From the NCBI RefSeq assembly GCF_020514235.1, contig NZ_VTLB01000007.1:1-46240 (forward strand): a stretch of 46,240 nt of DNA, in the 5' to 3' direction. The position numbers and the translations under genes are program-made. Of the stretch, positions 9,186 through 14,024 are shown piece by piece. The stretch comes from Synechococcus sp. MU1617. Lineage in GTDB: Bacteria > Cyanobacteriota > Cyanobacteriia > PCC-6307 > Cyanobiaceae. A model generated the notes under the pieces. It was given only the letters and a program-made list of their open reading frames with translations, did no database searches and was not told the origin of the DNA. Position 1 is the first letter of the stretch. Every line of letters starts with the position of its first letter.

Positions 9186-9443
9186 TATGGTCCGGGTGTT
9201 CAGGGTGCAGCGGCGTGGAGAGGTGAATGCTTCCTTCGGGGAGTGGTCATCATTCCGAAGGCGTTGCCGGCATTCACAATCCTTCAGGAGGAGGTGTCCA
9301 TGATTTCCAGTTGTTTGATTCAGGGTCTGCTGATCGCGGAGAACGCCGGCTGAACGGCGCCTTCTACTGATCATCCGGTTCCGCGGCAAAAGCGGACCCG
9401 GCGAGAGCCCCCGTCCGGACTTCCGGGCGGGGGCATCGTTTTT
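9186..9443 (+). ncRNA. Structured small transcription unit upstream of the porin genes (novel candidate)
   Basis: In the 429 bp between the ArnT-like gene and the first porin, a -10-like TATGGT sits at 9186-9191 and a strong intrinsic terminator at 9407-9443, defining a plus-strand transcript of about 245 nt. Within it are a long hairpin (8-bp GTGAATGC/GCATTCAC at 9223-9230/9270-9277 enclosing 7-bp CCTTCGG/CCGAAGG at 9233-9239/9255-9261), a strong Shine-Dalgarno run (AGGAGGAGG, 9287-9295), a 17-codon ORF, and a second hairpin (9375-9384/9392-9401, one mismatch). It could be a riboswitch or attenuator with a leader peptide, a small-protein gene, or a dual-function sRNA. I do not recognise a known RNA family. 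No clear -35 box is seen. Confidence 0.45.
9300..9353 (+). CDS. Possible 17-aa small protein or leader peptide
   Basis: An ATG follows AGGAGGAGG with near-ideal spacing, one of the strongest ribosome-binding sites in the window. It opens a 17-codon frame, MISSCLIQGLLIAENAG, ending in TGA. The frame could begin earlier at GTG 9243, giving about 36 aa, but that start lies inside the long hairpin. The predicted peptide is mildly hydrophobic with an acidic end and matches nothing I know. It sits inside a terminated, structured RNA, so translation may serve regulation rather than make a working protein. Confidence 0.35.
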   Translation: MISSCLIQGLLIAENAG

Positions 9444-9445
9444 AA
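9407..9445 (+). terminator. Rho-independent terminator of the small transcription unit
   Basis: A 12-bp stem (GCCCCCGTCCGG / CCGGGCGGGGGC, one wobble pair) with an ACTT loop is followed by ATCG and five T. No annotated gene ends here on the plus strand, so a short RNA must be the one terminated. Confidence 0.88.
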
Positions 9446-9468
9446 GAGGCCTCGCTCTGAGAAGAACA

Positions 9469-9482
9469 GTATCGACTGATAC
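9469..9482 (+). promoter_or_regulatory. NtcA-like palindrome GTA-N8-TAC upstream of porin 1
   Basis: GTATCGACTGATAC fits the NtcA consensus GTA-N8-TAC exactly. It lies about 104 bp before the porin-1 ATG. No clear TAN3T box is found about 22 bp downstream, as an NtcA-activated promoter would need, and the site overlaps the GATACAT element shared with porin 2. Repression or chance are therefore possible. Confidence 0.35.
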
Positions 9483-9484
9483 AT
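9478..9484 (+). promoter_or_regulatory. Shared GATACAT element of porin 1 (candidate promoter core)
   Basis: GATACAT lies 108 nt before the porin-1 ATG. The same heptamer lies 111 nt before the porin-2 ATG (11193-11199), although the leaders otherwise differ. The matched distance suggests a promoter -10 region or binding site that gives both mRNAs leaders of about 95 nt. Confidence 0.4.
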
Positions 9485-9570
9485 GTCGATGTAAGGACCG
9501 GCACAGGCAGCGTTGGTTGGTCGGCGAGCAGCCCTCACAATCTGGAAATGGCGTAGTTGCGCCTACTTCC

Positions 9571-9581
9571 TGTGTGAGGAA
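9571..9581 (+). promoter_or_regulatory. Porin-1 ribosome-binding site overlapping a Yfr1-type target motif
   Basis: TGTGTGAGGAA ends just before the start codon at 9586. GAGGA (9576-9580) is the Shine-Dalgarno. GTGTGAGGA is the exact complement of nine bases of the ultraconserved loop (ACUCCUCACAC) of the cyanobacterial sRNA Yfr1. The whole 11 nt is also perfectly complementary to 12983-12993 in the porin-2 3' UTR. Pairing would block translation initiation. Confidence 0.6.
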
Positions 9582-9585
9582 TTCA

Positions 9586-11082
9586 ATGAAGCTTTTCCAG
9601 CAACTGCTGGTGGCTCCTGCCGCCCTTGGCCTTCTGGCCACCGGCGCTAATGCCGCCGAGCTGAACATCAACGGCGTTTCTGATTACGCGGCTTCCGCTG
9701 ATCAGGTCACCAGCGTCACCCAATTCTCCGACGTCTACCCCACCGACTGGGCCTATCAGGCTCTGGCCAACCTGGTGGAGACCTACGGCTGCGTCGCCGG
9801 TTACCCCAACGGCACCTTCCGTGGCAACCGGGCCATGACCCGCTACGAAGCGGCTGCCCTGCTGAACGCCTGCCTCGACCGGATCACTGAAGTGACCGAC
9901 GAGCTGCGTCGTCTGCTCAAGGAATTCGAAACCGAGCTGGCCATCCTCAAGGGTCGCGTTGACGGCCTCGAGGCCCGCGTTGGCGAACTGGAAGCAACCC
10001 AGTTCTCCACCACCACCAAGCTCAAAGGTAAAGCTGACTGGGTCTTCGGTGCCGCTAAGGCTCACGGCCGTGGCAGCGATGCCTTCGAAGCCACCAACGG
10101 TGGCACCTCCTTCAGCTACAACCTGGCGCTGAACCTGGAGACCTCCTTCACCGGTAAGGACCTGCTCTACACCCGCCTGCGTGCAGGCAACATGAGCAAC
10201 GTCTACACCGGCCTGTTCGCCCAGGAGTACGGCTTCGATTCCGACAACGCTGTTGTCGTGAACCGCATGTACTACAGCTTCCCCATCGGTGAGAATTTCA
10301 CCGTGGTTGGCGGCCCTGTGGTTCGTATGGACGACATGCTTCCGGTGTGGCCTAGCGCCTATCCGTCTGCCATGACGTACGACTTCTTCACCTACGCTGG
10401 CGCGCCTGGTGCTTACAACCTGGCCCTCGGCGCTGGTGCTGGCGTGTACTGGAAGTCCGACGACTTCAGCATCGCCACCAGCTACCTCTCCACCAACGGC
10501 AACGACAGCAACCCCAACACGGGTGGTATCGGAACCGATGGTGCTGACTTCAGCGCCACCACTCAGATCGCCTATGCGCCTGAGAACTGGGGTATTGCTG
10601 CTGCCTACACCAAGGCTTCCGGCAACGCTGAGAAGCTGTACATCGGTAACGCCAACCCTCAAGCTGCGATCGCTTCGGGTATCGGTGGTCAGACCAACTC
10701 CTGGGGTCTGAGTGCCTGGTGGACTCCTGAAGATTCCGGCTGGATTCCTTCCATCAGCACCGGTGTGGGTTCTACCTACTTCGACGGCGGTACTGACGGC
10801 TACACCGCGTCCTGGTACGTGGGTCTCGAGTGGGACGACGTGTTCATCGAAGGCAATTCCTTCGGTATGGCCGTTGGTCAGCCCACCTTCGTCGCTTCTG
10901 TTGACGGCGACGCTGTCGAAGAAGGCGCCGGCTACGCCTGGGAATTCTTCTACAAGTTCCAGGTCACCGACAACATCAGCGTGACTCCTGCCATCACCTA
11001 CCTGAGCAAGCCCTTCCCTTCTCAGGACTCCAATGGCATGAACGCCTTCAGCGGCCTGGTCAAGACCCAGTTCAAGTTCTGA
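9586..11082 (+). CDS. Outer-membrane porin with SLH domain (Som/OprB type), copy 1
   Basis: 498 aa. The signal peptide is residues 1-22 (cleavage after ANA). A single SLH domain follows at about residues 44-107 (DVYPTDWAYQALANLVE ... YPNGTFRGNRAMTRYEAAALL), then a coiled coil at about 108-145 and a C-terminal beta-barrel rich in Gly and aromatic residues, ending in Phe (VKTQFKF) as outer-membrane porins do. The SLH part is thought to bind peptidoglycan-linked polymer, and the barrel forms the channel for small solutes. The start is set by GAGGA 5 nt upstream. The first 150 residues are nearly identical to those of the next gene, while the barrels diverge, so pore properties probably differ. 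Confidence 0.93.
   Translation: MKLFQQLLVAPAALGLLATGANAAELNINGVSDYAASADQVTSVTQFSDVYPTDWAYQALANLVETYGCVAGYPNGTFRGNRAMTRYEAAALLNACLDRITEVTDELRRLLKEFETELAILKGRVDGLEARVGELEATQFSTTTKLKGKADWVFGAAKAHGRGSDAFEATNGGTSFSYNLALNLETSFTGKDLLYTRLRAGNMSNVYTGLFAQEYGFDSDNAVVVNRMYYSFPIGENFTVVGGPVVRMDDMLPVWPSAYPSAMTYDFFTYAGAPGAYNLALGAGAGVYWKSDDFSIATSYLSTNGNDSNPNTGGIGTDGADFSATTQIAYAPENWGIAAAYTKASGNAEKLYIGNANPQAAIASGIGGQTNSWGLSAWWTPEDSGWIPSISTGVGSTYFDGGTDGYTASWYVGLEWDDVFIEGNSFGMAVGQPTFVASVDGDAVEEGAGYAWEFFYKFQVTDNISVTPAITYLSKPFPSQDSNGMNAFSGLVKTQFKF
9649..10025 (+). repeat. Homogenised tract shared by porin genes, copy 1
   Basis: These 377 bp match 11367-11743 at every base except one (T at 9801, C at 11519, silent). 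The tract covers the end of the signal peptide, the SLH domain and the coiled coil. Before and after it the two genes differ much more, including at silent sites, which points to recent gene conversion or strong recombination. Confidence 0.95.
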
Positions 11083-11092
11083 TCCTTGGTTT

Positions 11093-11112
11093 AAGGCCCC
11101 TTCAGGGGCCTT
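11093..11112 (+). terminator. Hairpin after porin 1
   Basis: A perfect 8-bp stem (AAGGCCCC / GGGGCCTT) with a TTCA loop starts 10 bp after the stop. It lacks a T-run, so it may protect the 3' end while the following hairpin terminates. Confidence 0.6.
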
Positions 11113-11130
11113 ATCCCTTTCAGATTCTTC

Positions 11131-11160
11131 AGCTCTCCACTTCGGTGGGGAGCTTTTTTA
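11131..11160 (+). terminator. Rho-independent terminator of porin 1
   Basis: A 10-bp stem (AGCTCTCCAC / GTGGGGAGCT, one wobble) with a TTCG tetraloop is followed by T6. The two-hairpin layout after the stop repeats after porin 2. Confidence 0.9.
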
Positions 11161-11192
11161 TGCGGCTCCAGCATGAAGGAATGGTCTTAACC

Positions 11193-11199
11193 GATACAT
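11193..11199 (+). promoter_or_regulatory. Shared GATACAT element of porin 2 (candidate promoter core)
   Basis: GATACAT lies 111 nt before the porin-2 ATG and matches the element at 9478-9484 in sequence and distance. No NtcA-like palindrome is present here, so the shared part is only this heptamer. Confidence 0.4.
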
Positions 11200-11284
11200 A
11201 AACAACCCTTGAGTTGCTGTTACCGACATGGTTGTCTCGCGCTAATAGCGTGAAGCCGCTGGCATGTCTTGCCGGCACTTTTCT

Positions 11285-11295
11285 CTTGGTGTGAG
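11285..11295 (+). promoter_or_regulatory. Porin-2 leader motif complementary to Yfr1-type sequence
   Basis: CTTGGTGTGAG lies 8 nt before the ATG at 11304. GTGTGAG complements the Yfr1 core (CUCACAC). CTTGGTGTG (11285-11293) is perfectly complementary to 12994-13002 in this gene's own 3' UTR. Ribosome binding must use the weak GTGAGAA, so the site is again over the translation start. Confidence 0.5.
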
Positions 11296-11303
11296 AACCC
11301 AAA

Positions 11304-12944
11304 ATGAAGCTTTTCCAGCAACTGCTGGTGGCTCCTGCTGCCCTTGGCCTGATCGCCAGTGGTGCCAATGCCGCCGAGCTGAACATCAACGGCGTTTCTG
11401 ATTACGCGGCTTCCGCTGATCAGGTCACCAGCGTCACCCAATTCTCCGACGTCTACCCCACCGACTGGGCCTATCAGGCTCTGGCCAACCTGGTGGAGAC
11501 CTACGGCTGCGTCGCCGGCTACCCCAACGGCACCTTCCGTGGCAACCGGGCCATGACCCGCTACGAAGCGGCTGCCCTGCTGAACGCCTGCCTCGACCGG
11601 ATCACTGAAGTGACCGACGAGCTGCGTCGTCTGCTCAAGGAATTCGAAACCGAGCTGGCCATCCTCAAGGGTCGCGTTGACGGCCTCGAGGCCCGCGTTG
11701 GCGAACTGGAAGCAACCCAGTTCTCCACCACCACCAAGCTCAAGGCCAAAACTGTCTGGGTGGCTGGTGCGACGCGCGCCAAAGGTGACAACTACAACAC
11801 CGGTGGCGAGAAGGGTGCCCGTGATGCTTACAACGCTGAGTACGGCGCTTTCTCCTTCAGCTACGACCTGCGTCTTGGCCTGAAGACCTCCTTCAGCGGC
11901 AAGGATCTCCTGTACACCCGCCTGCGCGCAGGCAACATGGGTGATACCAGTGTGTGGGATGGCAACGGCGTTGCTCTGAACAAACTCGACACCGCTGCCC
12001 CCGGCGACAACATCGTCGAGATTGATCGCATCTACTACCGCTTCCCCCTCGGCGACAGCTTCACTGTCCAGGTCGGTCCCCTGACCCGGAACACCGAGAT
12101 GATGGGCTATAAAGCCAGTGCCTACGCCAAGGGCGGCAGCAAGATCCTTGATTTCTTCGGTGGTTCCCTGGGTACCCCCGGCGTCTGGAACAAGGAGACC
12201 GGTGGTGGCTTCGGTGCCATTTACACCAACAAGAAGCAAGTGGAGAAGGGCAATCCCTACTTCACCGTGGCTGCTAACTACGTTGCCGACTCCGGTGAGG
12301 CCAATGACAGCAACCCCAACACGGGTGGCTTCATGACCGATAACTCCGAAGGCAACATCACCACTCAGATTGCCTATGGCAACAAGCAGTGGGGCTTGGC
12401 CGCCGGTTATCGCTACGGCCAGTGTGGTGCCAAGTTCCGTACCGCTACCGAGTTCGCTAAGGGCGGTAAGTACGGCACCCCTTGCACCGTCGCTGACGGC
12501 GAGCGCACCAACGCCGATAGCCACAGCTGGTCTGCACACGCCTTCTGGCGTCCTGAGGAGTCCGGCTGGATGCCTTCCATCAGTGCTGGCGTCGGTAGCT
12601 CCTACCTGACTGGCAACGATGCTTGGGATGACAACACCAACAAGCGGTCTATGGCCAGCTGGATGGTGGGTCTGACCTGGAACGATGTCCTCCTCGAGGG
12701 CAACGCTCTTGGTTATGCCGTGGGTCAGCCCCAGTTCGTCTACGAGGTCGAGGACGGCTTCGTGGCTGATGGCGGTTACGCCATGGAGCTCTGGTACAGC
12801 TTCCAGGTCACCGACAACATCCAGATCACCCCTGCTGTGTACTGGCTGAGCCGTCCCTTCGGTGACGACACCCAGAACGTCAACGGCGACTACAAGTCCC
12901 TCGGCGTCTTCGGTGGCCTGGTTCAGACCACCTTCAAGTTCTGA
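11304..12944 (+). CDS. Outer-membrane porin with SLH domain (Som/OprB type), copy 2
   Basis: 546 aa with the same plan as copy 1: signal peptide ending ANA at about residue 22, SLH domain at 44-107, coiled coil at 108-145, then a longer beta-barrel ending TTFKF. The barrel has extra loops compared with copy 1, including a Cys-containing stretch (GQCGAKF ... GTPCTV) near residues 373-394 that could form a disulfide. Motifs such as NDSNPNTGG and EESGWMPSIS are shared with copy 1, so the two are true paralogues. It is expressed from its own leader after a terminator. These are probably the major outer-membrane proteins of the cell (family knowledge). Confidence 0.93.
   Translation: MKLFQQLLVAPAALGLIASGANAAELNINGVSDYAASADQVTSVTQFSDVYPTDWAYQALANLVETYGCVAGYPNGTFRGNRAMTRYEAAALLNACLDRITEVTDELRRLLKEFETELAILKGRVDGLEARVGELEATQFSTTTKLKAKTVWVAGATRAKGDNYNTGGEKGARDAYNAEYGAFSFSYDLRLGLKTSFSGKDLLYTRLRAGNMGDTSVWDGNGVALNKLDTAAPGDNIVEIDRIYYRFPLGDSFTVQVGPLTRNTEMMGYKASAYAKGGSKILDFFGGSLGTPGVWNKETGGGFGAIYTNKKQVEKGNPYFTVAANYVADSGEANDSNPNTGGFMTDNSEGNITTQIAYGNKQWGLAAGYRYGQCGAKFRTATEFAKGGKYGTPCTVADGERTNADSHSWSAHAFWRPEESGWMPSISAGVGSSYLTGNDAWDDNTNKRSMASWMVGLTWNDVLLEGNALGYAVGQPQFVYEVEDGFVADGGYAMELWYSFQVTDNIQITPAVYWLSRPFGDDTQNVNGDYKSLGVFGGLVQTTFKF
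11367..11743 (+). repeat. Homogenised tract shared by porin genes, copy 2
   Basis: Partner of 9649-10025, with 376 of 377 bases identical at a constant offset of 1718 and no indel. Identity breaks at AAGCTCAA|G here against AAGCTCAA|A in copy 1. Confidence 0.95.
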
Positions 12945-12950
12945 TCTATT

Positions 12951-13027
12951 GGCCCGACTTCGGTTGGGCCTTCAGAACAACCTTCCTCACACACACACCA
13001 AGCTCTCCCCTGGGGAGGGCTTTTTTT
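12951..13027 (+). ncRNA. Yfr1-like module in the porin-2 3' UTR (hairpin, AC-rich single strand, terminator hairpin)
   Basis: Hairpin 1 (GGCCCGAC TTCG GTTGGGCC, 12951-12970) is followed by an unpaired stretch containing TTCCTCACACACACACACC (12983-12999) and then a terminator hairpin with T7 (13001-13027). Yfr1 is known as an RNA of 54-65 nt with two stem-loops around an unpaired ACUCCUCACAC; this element has the same order and nine of the eleven core bases. It may be released from the porin mRNA or act in place. From memory the usual Yfr1 gene lies near guaB/trxA, so this would be an additional copy or mimic. It could also be only a 3' UTR with an AC repeat. Confidence 0.4.
13001..13027 (+). 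terminator. Rho-independent terminator of porin 2
   Basis: Stem AGCTCTCCCC / GGGGAGGGCT (with wobble pairs and a minimal loop) is followed by T7. It is the second of two hairpins after the stop, as after porin 1. Confidence 0.88.
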
Positions 13028-13055
13028 ATGGTTGTTCTATGGCCAAGCTGCAGCC

Positions 13056-14024
13056 ATGAGCATTGCTCCTGACATCACGGCCTTGATCGGTGGCACGCCT
13101 CTGGTGCGGTTGAACCGTCTGCCCCAGGCCTGCGGCTGTCAGGCCGAGATCCTGGCCAAGTTGGAGAGCTTCAATCCATCCGCCTCGGTGAAAGACCGCA
13201 TCGCCAGCGCCATGGTGCTGGAGGCGGAGCAAGCCGGCACGATCGTTCCCGGCCGTACGGTGCTGGTGGAGCCCACCAGCGGCAACACCGGAATCGCCTT
13301 GGCCATGGTGGCGGCGGCCCGGGGTTATCGGCTGATTCTCACCATGCCGGACACCATGAGCACCGAGCGTCGAGCGATGCTACGGGCCTACGGCGCCGAG
13401 TTGCAGCTCACCGACGGTGCCCAGGGCATGAACGGGGCGATAGCGCTGGCGAAGGAGTTGGTGGAGGAGATTCCCAACGCTTATCTGCTTCAGCAGTTCG
13501 ACAACCCCGCCAATCCGGCCGTGCATGAACGCACCACGGCCGAGGAGATTTGGCGCGATACCCAGGGCCAGATCGATGCCTTTGTGGCGGGGGTGGGCAC
13601 CGGTGGCACGATCACCGGCTGCGCCCGTCTGCTGAAAGAGCGTCAGCCGCAGCTTCAGGTGATTGCCGTTGAGCCCGAGGCCAGTGCCGTGCTGTCCGGG
13701 AAGCCTCCTGGGGCCCATCGCATCCAGGGGATCGGAGCTGGTTTTGTTCCCGCGGTGCTGGAACTGGATCGGATTGATTTGATCCTTACGGTGAGCGATG
13801 AGGAGGCGATGCAGGTGGGTCGGCGCCTGGCCCGGGAGGAGGGTTTGCTCTGCGGTATTAGCAGTGGAGCGGCCATGGCAGCGGCCCTGCGGGTGGGCCA
13901 AGACCCCGCCATGGCGGGCAAACGGCTGGTGGTGGTGCTGGCTAGTTATGGCGAGCGTTACCTCTCCACCCCGATGTTCAGTGCCGCTTCGCAGCTTCCC
14001 GCCCGGAGGGATGGTCAGCTGTGA
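13056..14024 (+). CDS. cysK: Cysteine synthase (O-acetylserine sulfhydrylase)
   Basis: 322 aa, normal length. This cytosolic PLP enzyme makes cysteine from O-acetylserine and sulfide, the last step of sulfate assimilation. The Schiff-base Lys is K46 in NPSASVKDR. The substrate loop PTSGNTG is at about 73-79, the phosphate-binding loop GTGGTITG is near 180 and the SSGAA motif is near 270. The ATG at 13056 is chosen because the alignment of the first strand (IGGTPLVRL) fits; an in-frame start 24 bp upstream lies next to the terminator. The stop overlaps the GTG of the J-domain gene by 4 bp (GTGA). Confidence 0.95.

Follow-up and report, generated by a model that had tools for sequence, protein, structure and literature searches.

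The 3' untranslated region (3' UTR) of a porin gene in Synechococcus sp. MU1617 carries a recurrent RNA element that resembles the small RNA (sRNA) Yfr1 and is enriched in porin 3' UTRs across genera. It lies in a 46,240-nt stretch of DNA (contig NZ_VTLB01000007.1, positions 1–46,240 of the forward strand; the window), where two tandem OprB/SLH porin genes, porin 1 (9586–11082) and porin 2 (11304–12944), are followed by a PALP-family gene from 13056; these genes, the leader sites and the parts of the porin-2 3' UTR are all on the + strand. The element would belong to a regulatory circuit: in the reading that we tentatively prefer, at somewhat less than even confidence, the porin-2 3' UTR is an mRNA-borne Yfr1-type element that pairs with the start sites of sister porin mRNAs and lowers their translation. 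The exposed UUCCUCACACA would act as an anti-Shine-Dalgarno seed, carried by the whole mRNA or by a 3' fragment arising from decay or RNase cleavage, and would pair in trans with GUGUGAGGA(A) at the start sites of the mRNAs of porin 1 and porin 3 (a third porin gene, encoded elsewhere in the genome). Sister porin translation would then be lowered, as it is by Yfr1, and an abundant porin-2 mRNA would mean less of the other pores. Computation shows the sequence, its predicted structure and exposure, the complementarity and the recurrence in porin UTRs of other genomes and genera; we infer the pairing in the cell, the sign of its effect and the form of the acting RNA.

The porin-2 3' UTR consists of a hairpin (hairpin 1, 12951–12970, identified by folding and covariation), an unpaired linker with the Yfr1-like seed UUCCUCACACA (12983–12993) and an intrinsic terminator shared with the porin-2 mRNA (13000–13027, supported by the fold). 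Its minimum free energy (MFE) is -33 kcal/mol (z -4.45), a stability reached by none of 200 shuffled sequences, and the seed is predicted to be unpaired between the 5' hairpin and the terminator hairpin. Its predicted unpaired probability averages 0.95 in loci L002–L052, with all 13 sites above 0.8, and 0.88 in other loci (71 of 92 sites above 0.8). Hairpin 1 shows two-sided changes at five of its eight pairs, and 98.4% of the cells are paired, in an alignment of 16 genus sequences from genomes chosen for possession of the motif. The unpaired linker described by the first-pass annotation, made from the letters of the sequence, is present between the two hairpins, the true run being TTCCTCACACACACACC (17 nt) and the quoted one being longer by one AC unit. 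Two complementary arms, AGAACAACC (12974–12982) and GGTTGTTCT (13030–13038), flank the seed and terminator; this read-through stem has one compensatory case (L019), is missing in L006 and L023 and is not general, and L036 retains the left arm without the right. The sole other TTCCTCACACAC in the genome (L032, C2:414551) is part of an inverted repeat with imperfect arms.

The best case for a real element is made by its recurrence in porin UTRs of other genera. The sample comprised one near-complete genome per genus from 32 other genera among the genomes listed, small fragments being left out; its 84 UTRs were not chosen for the motif, and excluding the loci fetched earlier on account of it makes the count conservative. 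CCTCACAC was present in 11 of the 84, whereas 500 dinucleotide-shuffled sets gave 0.39 on average and never more than 3; in the genus sample, it was present in 10 of 41 porin UTRs (shuffled 0.23, maximum 2). The commonest octamer of the porin leaders in other genera, GTGTGAGG (33 of 45), is the exact reverse complement of CCTCACAC. With the earlier motif loci added, matches occur in 27 of 97 UTRs and in 15 of the 32 genera; about three (G069 L277, G076 and G077 L249) are probably false, as they seem to lie in the next gene, and without them 14 genera would be left. The genomes without the seed include most of the small ones (1.7–2.0 Mb), several of which have GTGTGAGG in their leaders, and also the larger G040, G064, G066 and G081. 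Among the UTRs with CCTCAC in loci L180–L301, 11 of 67 have two copies. A pattern search matched 105 of 400 genomes, its reversed control about 48 (hand count), and the pattern also matches a conserved Prochlorococcus-like locus (g17, AAGTTCTGAACAAGG..., in about 15–17 genomes) that does not look porin-related; reliance on this search was limited to sites behind porin ORFs (open reading frames), directly behind which lie 46 of the 63 unique pattern sites of the motif-chosen loci L138–L219. The first-pass annotation had pointed to relatives for recurrence of the seed and of the leader motif, and both do recur, the seed in porin UTRs inside and outside the genus and GTGTGAGG in the leaders.

Such recurrence could also reflect a protein-binding site or a 3'-end stability element, leader complementarity being a side effect. 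The Yfr1 motif itself could be a protein site, as PMC2190773 notes, and CAGAAC upstream likewise recurs. We hold this to be quite improbable: the seed is the exact reverse complement of the commonest leader octamer, and pairing explains its exposure equally.

Within the genus, 11 of 19 near-complete genomes have the exact UCCUCAC in a porin 3' UTR, and four more (G004, G022, G027 and G028, the last with UUCCUUACACA) have one-base variants. The seed is missing in G001, G003, G029 and G033, the porins of G033 being cut by contig ends. A relaxed pattern is found in 14 of the 19; its matches in G001 and G003 fall inside a hairpin (CCCTCACG) and were scored as absent. Most of the remaining porins in these genomes are without the seed and serve as an internal control. 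G021, G023 and G024 carry the seed or a variant on two porins each, and in G005 and G006 it stands behind the neighboring porin, which argues for a kept function rather than a relic. In a motif-picked set (n = 14), a choice of sequences that biases the test toward the motif, the ten seed columns showed a pairwise identity of 0.855, while 106 fourfold sites of the same gene showed 0.668; only 105 of 100,000 random draws did as well. A model of the element was also run against 400 family genomes, giving 59 with E ≤ 0.001 and 20 with at least 42 bits, 19 of them in the genus; it was built from motif-picked sequences of 16 of these genomes, so the result is mostly circular, and weaker matches were not counted as members. 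Matches outside the training set are those in G006, G024, G028 and G128, to which G021 and G023 add a second copy each, and no relative was found in the viral contigs searched.

The complementarity noted in the first-pass annotation is correct in its coordinates and pairing: TTCCTCACACA at 12983–12993 faces TGTGTGAGGAA at 9571–9581 in the porin-1 leader over 11 nt, including the porin-1 Shine-Dalgarno (SD) sequence GAGGA, with the ATG at 9586, and the porin-3 leader has the identical 11 nt. The second complement is likewise present, CACACCAAG (12994–13002) against CTTGGTGTG (11285–11293), the latter followed by AGAACC and forming, upstream of the porin-2 ATG at 11304, a variant Yfr1-type site without GAGGA. 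It is weaker, as the AAG of CACACCAAG is the base of the terminator stem, CACCAAG is exact in only four of the 16 aligned sequences (L002, L004, L005 and L006), and the net energy predicted for this leader is only -3.3 kcal/mol. Net pairing energies, which count accessibility and score gapless helices only, were predicted at -4.6, -10.9 and -3.3 kcal/mol for the porin-2 UTR with the porin-1, porin-3 and own leaders, and at -9.6 and -11.0 kcal/mol with the two Yfr2 RNAs of the genome. For Yfr1 the corresponding values were -1.2 (porin 1), -7.6 (porin 3), -5.4 (porin-2 leader), and -8.6 and -10.1 kcal/mol (Yfr2 RNAs), whereas the porin-1 UTR, taken as a control, gave -1.3 (porin-1 leader), -1.7 (porin-3 leader) and +2.4 kcal/mol (porin-2 leader), with +0.2 and -2.1 kcal/mol for the Yfr2 RNAs. 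The UTR thus equals or exceeds Yfr1 in predicted pairing with these five partners except its own leader, which has lost GAGGA, and this argues for action in trans. The pairing proposed earlier with the porin-1 leader therefore stands at the level of prediction (-4.6 compared to -1.2 kcal/mol for Yfr1). The proposed repression of porin 2 by its own UTR is not supported, since the leader reads GUGAGAACC and not GUGAGGAA and pairs less well (-3.3 kcal/mol) than with Yfr1 (-5.4 kcal/mol).

The same values bear on pairing in cis, in which the 3' UTR would bind the leader of its own mRNA and close the message on itself, an arrangement known for icaR of Staphylococcus aureus. The own leader and the UTR do have complements of 7–9 nt, and the own leader retains GUGUGAGGAA in the relatives L009, L011 and L014. 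On the other hand, it reads GUGAGAA in the window and in L003, L005, L006, L008, L010 and L020, where the UTRs keep UUCCUCAC or a variant and do not match UUCUCAC; with a net pairing of only -3.3 kcal/mol in addition, closure in cis is very unlikely.

A stronger competitor is Yfr2, a partner that the first-pass annotation had not raised: both Yfr2-type RNAs of the genome have a GUGAGGA site and are equally good predicted partners. Yfr2-type RNA (Cyano-1, RF01701) was found in all 44 genomes searched, in 42 of them over the family cut-off, and the Yfr2-type RNAs read have GTGAGG in 52 of 52 cases and GTGTGAGG near the 5' end in 39 of 52. The seed might be a Yfr2 sponge, the UTR binding the 5' GUGUGAGGAG/GUGAGGAAA of Yfr2 RNAs, freeing Yfr1 and so indirectly repressing porins and other Yfr1 targets. 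In agreement with it are the pairing energies (-9.6 and -11.0 kcal/mol) with both Yfr2-type RNAs, the presence in many UTRs of CACUCCUCAC, a 10-nt complement of Yfr2 GUGAGGAGUG, and the longest perfect run at 60 sites, longer with Yfr2 at 27, with leaders at 15 and tied at 18, a comparison confined to other genera (several genus genomes had their own leader only). However, the Yfr1 core is itself a match for Yfr2, and the seed is similar to that core, so its match with Yfr2 may be incidental. Genus UTRs mostly have U just 5' of UCCUCAC, a base compatible with leaders (GAGGAA) as well as with a second Yfr2 type, and the association of CCCUCAC UTRs with a GAGGGG Yfr2 is not significant (4 of 10 compared to 7 of 50; p 0.07 with all rows, 0.04 with rows dropped). 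We consider the sponge rather unlikely. From the predicted pairing, an effect on sister porins and a titration of Yfr2 are both plausible, and trans repression of sister porins and the Yfr2 sponge would share the outcome that abundant porin mRNA strengthens Yfr1-type repression. The second Yfr2 type of the genus, with GUGAGGAAAAACGCCUCAC or a near sequence, has the pairing site followed by its own complement (L221, L342, L344, L345, L346, L350, L352, L353 and L355).

Several results weigh against trans repression of sister porins. The porin-1 SD is predicted to be folded away, with an opening cost of 12.1 kcal/mol; a fourth porin leader (start as placed here) has no site; and the Yfr2 RNAs fit the seed as well as the leaders do or better. 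When its duplex energies were compared with those of shuffled sequences, the linker did not stand out (shuffles equally good: 52, 198 and 33 of 500 for porins 1, 2 and 3), whereas the Yfr1 core did (4, 1 and 8 of 500). UTRs and leaders show no covariation beyond the core, because the bases before CCTCAC in other genera are CT at 38 and TT at 20 of 78 sites and the leaders mostly read GAGGAC (42) or GAGGAA (20). A sequence scan of 12500–13100 found no promoter-like site. In UTRs chosen by gene order (a porin directly 5' of the PALP gene, n = 16) the exact seed is found in eight, a one-base variant in six and none in two. Four of the six variants (UCUUCAC twice, UCCUUAC and UCCUCAU, all C to U) would retain the pair as G-U and two (UCCCUCAC) would lose it. 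The gene-order set excludes G005 and G010, where no such porin UTR precedes the PALP gene, and G021 and G024, where the porin abuts it; in the 12 of its UTRs with a full porin ORF (L302, L028, L017 and L312 lacking one), the seed columns have an identity of 0.785 compared to 0.703 at fourfold sites, which is not significant (12,088 of 100,000 draws). Seed conservation inside the genus is suggestive only, and our confidence in trans repression, and in the wider porin-pool reading given at the end, is reduced because the gene-order test did not bear out the conservation seen in the motif-picked set.

These last results also bear on a chance origin, without function, in an AC-rich linker, which the low complexity, the weak duplex shuffle test, the gene-order comparison and the eight of 19 near-complete genus genomes without the exact UCCUCAC would all fit. 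The two strands of the 2.32-Mb genome together hold 12 copies of TCCTCACAC and 10 of its reversed control pattern, and it is therefore not enriched genome-wide; its chance at one of about 75 UTR positions is about 2 in 10,000. Four of the 12 genomic TCCTCACAC/GTGTGAGGA sites are seeds before a terminator (Yfr1, a Yfr10-like site, the porin-2 UTR and one 3' of a sigma-factor gene), and three are partner sites (the porin-1 leader, the porin-3 leader and one Yfr2). A chance origin is made less likely by the recurrence of the seed in porin UTRs of other genera, enriched in a sample that was not motif-chosen; the predicted exposure of the seed and its relocation to the neighboring porin in G005 and G006 also speak against chance, which we regard as improbable.

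The first-pass annotation described the UTR as a Yfr1-type RNA, which is apt for its architecture and seed. The possibility that it is Yfr1 was rejected: the Rfam Yfr1 model (RF01116) has no match at the gathering score in the window and none at E ≤ 10 for 9400–13100, the core differs, and a separate Yfr1, which that annotation proposed to seek by Rfam covariance search, is found on another contig (G000:C1:648024–648080, 67.5 bits). There it lies between genes read as guaB- and trxA-like, the usual location of yfr1, which the porin-2 UTR does not share. As the genome also holds an intergenic Yfr10-like candidate (G000:C4:33164–33208) with the exact core ACUCCUCACACC and a terminator, the porin-2 UTR is a further carrier of the seed. 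It shares with Yfr1 the order of hairpin, unpaired UCCUCACAC seed and terminator, and identical leader sites on porin mRNAs. Unlike the Yfr1 core ACUCCUCACAC, invariant in 18 of 18 family genomes examined, its own core is CUUCCUCACAC (9 of 11 in agreement), and UTR seeds vary. Yfr1 is a free, abundant RNA of 54–69 nt, whereas the porin-2 element, as far as sequence indicates, lies within the porin-2 transcript as part of an mRNA, with no promoter-like site found at 12500–13100.

According to PMC6778093, Yfr1 pairs with porin mRNAs in MED4 and its expression is only slightly altered under the stresses tested, Yfr2 blocks Yfr1, and Yfr10-like RNAs, with Yfr10 verified in WH8102 (Fig. S6), have the same seed. 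The element resembles these Yfr10-like RNAs of picocyanobacteria in having a Yfr1 seed outside yfr1 and being otherwise poorly conserved (PMC6778093, PMC2518516). In contrast, the MED4 Yfr10 seed is described there as lying in a loop on a stem, and here it lies in a linker of a porin 3' UTR. The Yfr10-like site of this genome (L175/L407) has the form GTCGAC-UCCUCACACCACC plus terminator, which 10 genus genomes share, this one among them and G012 with a variant, and is likely a Yfr10-type RNA. At C6:107856 (L177), 3' of a sigma-70 factor gene (assigned by Pfam), a Yfr1-type seed CUCCUCACAC precedes a terminator; its TCCTCACACGGAA block recurs in nine other genus genomes, with a TATAA-like box upstream in eight genus loci and a sigma ORF confirmed upstream in two, and it looks like a free-standing sRNA gene. 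A further seed class, in five genus genomes (L394, L402, L403, L417 and L419), has UCCUCACACAAG... and a second CCUCACAC copy before a terminator.

PMC9438474 and PMC8136909 describe sRNAs that derive from mRNA 3' ends and act on porins, on their own operon or on another sRNA: MalH reduces porin mRNAs, OppZ controls the operon it comes from, SroC serves as a sponge and ApcZ is cyanobacterial. The porin-2 UTR is like OppZ/CarZ, MalH, SroC and ApcZ in that the mRNA terminator is shared and the seed lies in the 3' UTR, where it is predicted to be accessible. It differs in that its seed copies that of a global sRNA (Yfr1) and in that its likely targets are paralogues of the parent gene. Release of an sRNA from it, suggested by the first-pass annotation, is unproven; the balance between the two pores and the competition of the UTR with Yfr1, also suggested there, are possible. 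No description of Yfr1 seeds in porin 3' UTRs was found in the literature searched, including the available parts of PMC5069720, PMC7368042 and PMC6974561, the WH8102 Yfr10 position (supplement of PMC6778093) being outside that search; within it, this recurrent element, a 3' UTR seed copying a global sRNA, appears undescribed.

Other features of the window concern the porins and their neighbor. In the porin-1 leader, CCTCACA (9533–9539) is predicted to pair with 9573–9579 over the SD in the MFE fold of 9500–9620, a weakly supported fold (17 of 200 shuffles equally or more stable), and TTCCT-GTGTG-AGGAA (9567–9581) might form a small SD hairpin. Both porins were assigned from their ORFs and Pfam matches (OprB and SLH) and are identical at 433 of their first 445 bases (9586–10030 and 11304–11748), the remainder being different, which suggests gene conversion of the SLH region. 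The porin-1 3' UTR has a sub-threshold Rfam suhB/mmgR match at 11090–11168 (28.8 bits, gathering score 41), probably just two GC-rich hairpins. The downstream PALP-family gene (13056–14024, from ORF and Pfam) is cysteine-synthase-like and is presumably cysK.

Protein regulators are few in picocyanobacteria, whose best-known RNAs include Yfr1, Yfr2 and Yfr10. A recurrent Yfr1 seed in porin mRNAs would offer an input to Yfr1 activity, namely porin mRNA level, would link outer-membrane composition and the entry of phage and nutrients to the Yfr1 network, and would exemplify an mRNA 3' UTR that copies a global sRNA. It is possible, though we put it forward with reserve and at somewhat less than even confidence, that porin mRNAs across much of the family's Synechococcus side carry at least one Yfr1 seed and that the porin mRNA pool acts as a regulator without a dedicated gene, which represses sister porins, soaks up Yfr2 and ties the Yfr1 regulon, with its envelope, carbon and nitrogen genes, to porin expression.

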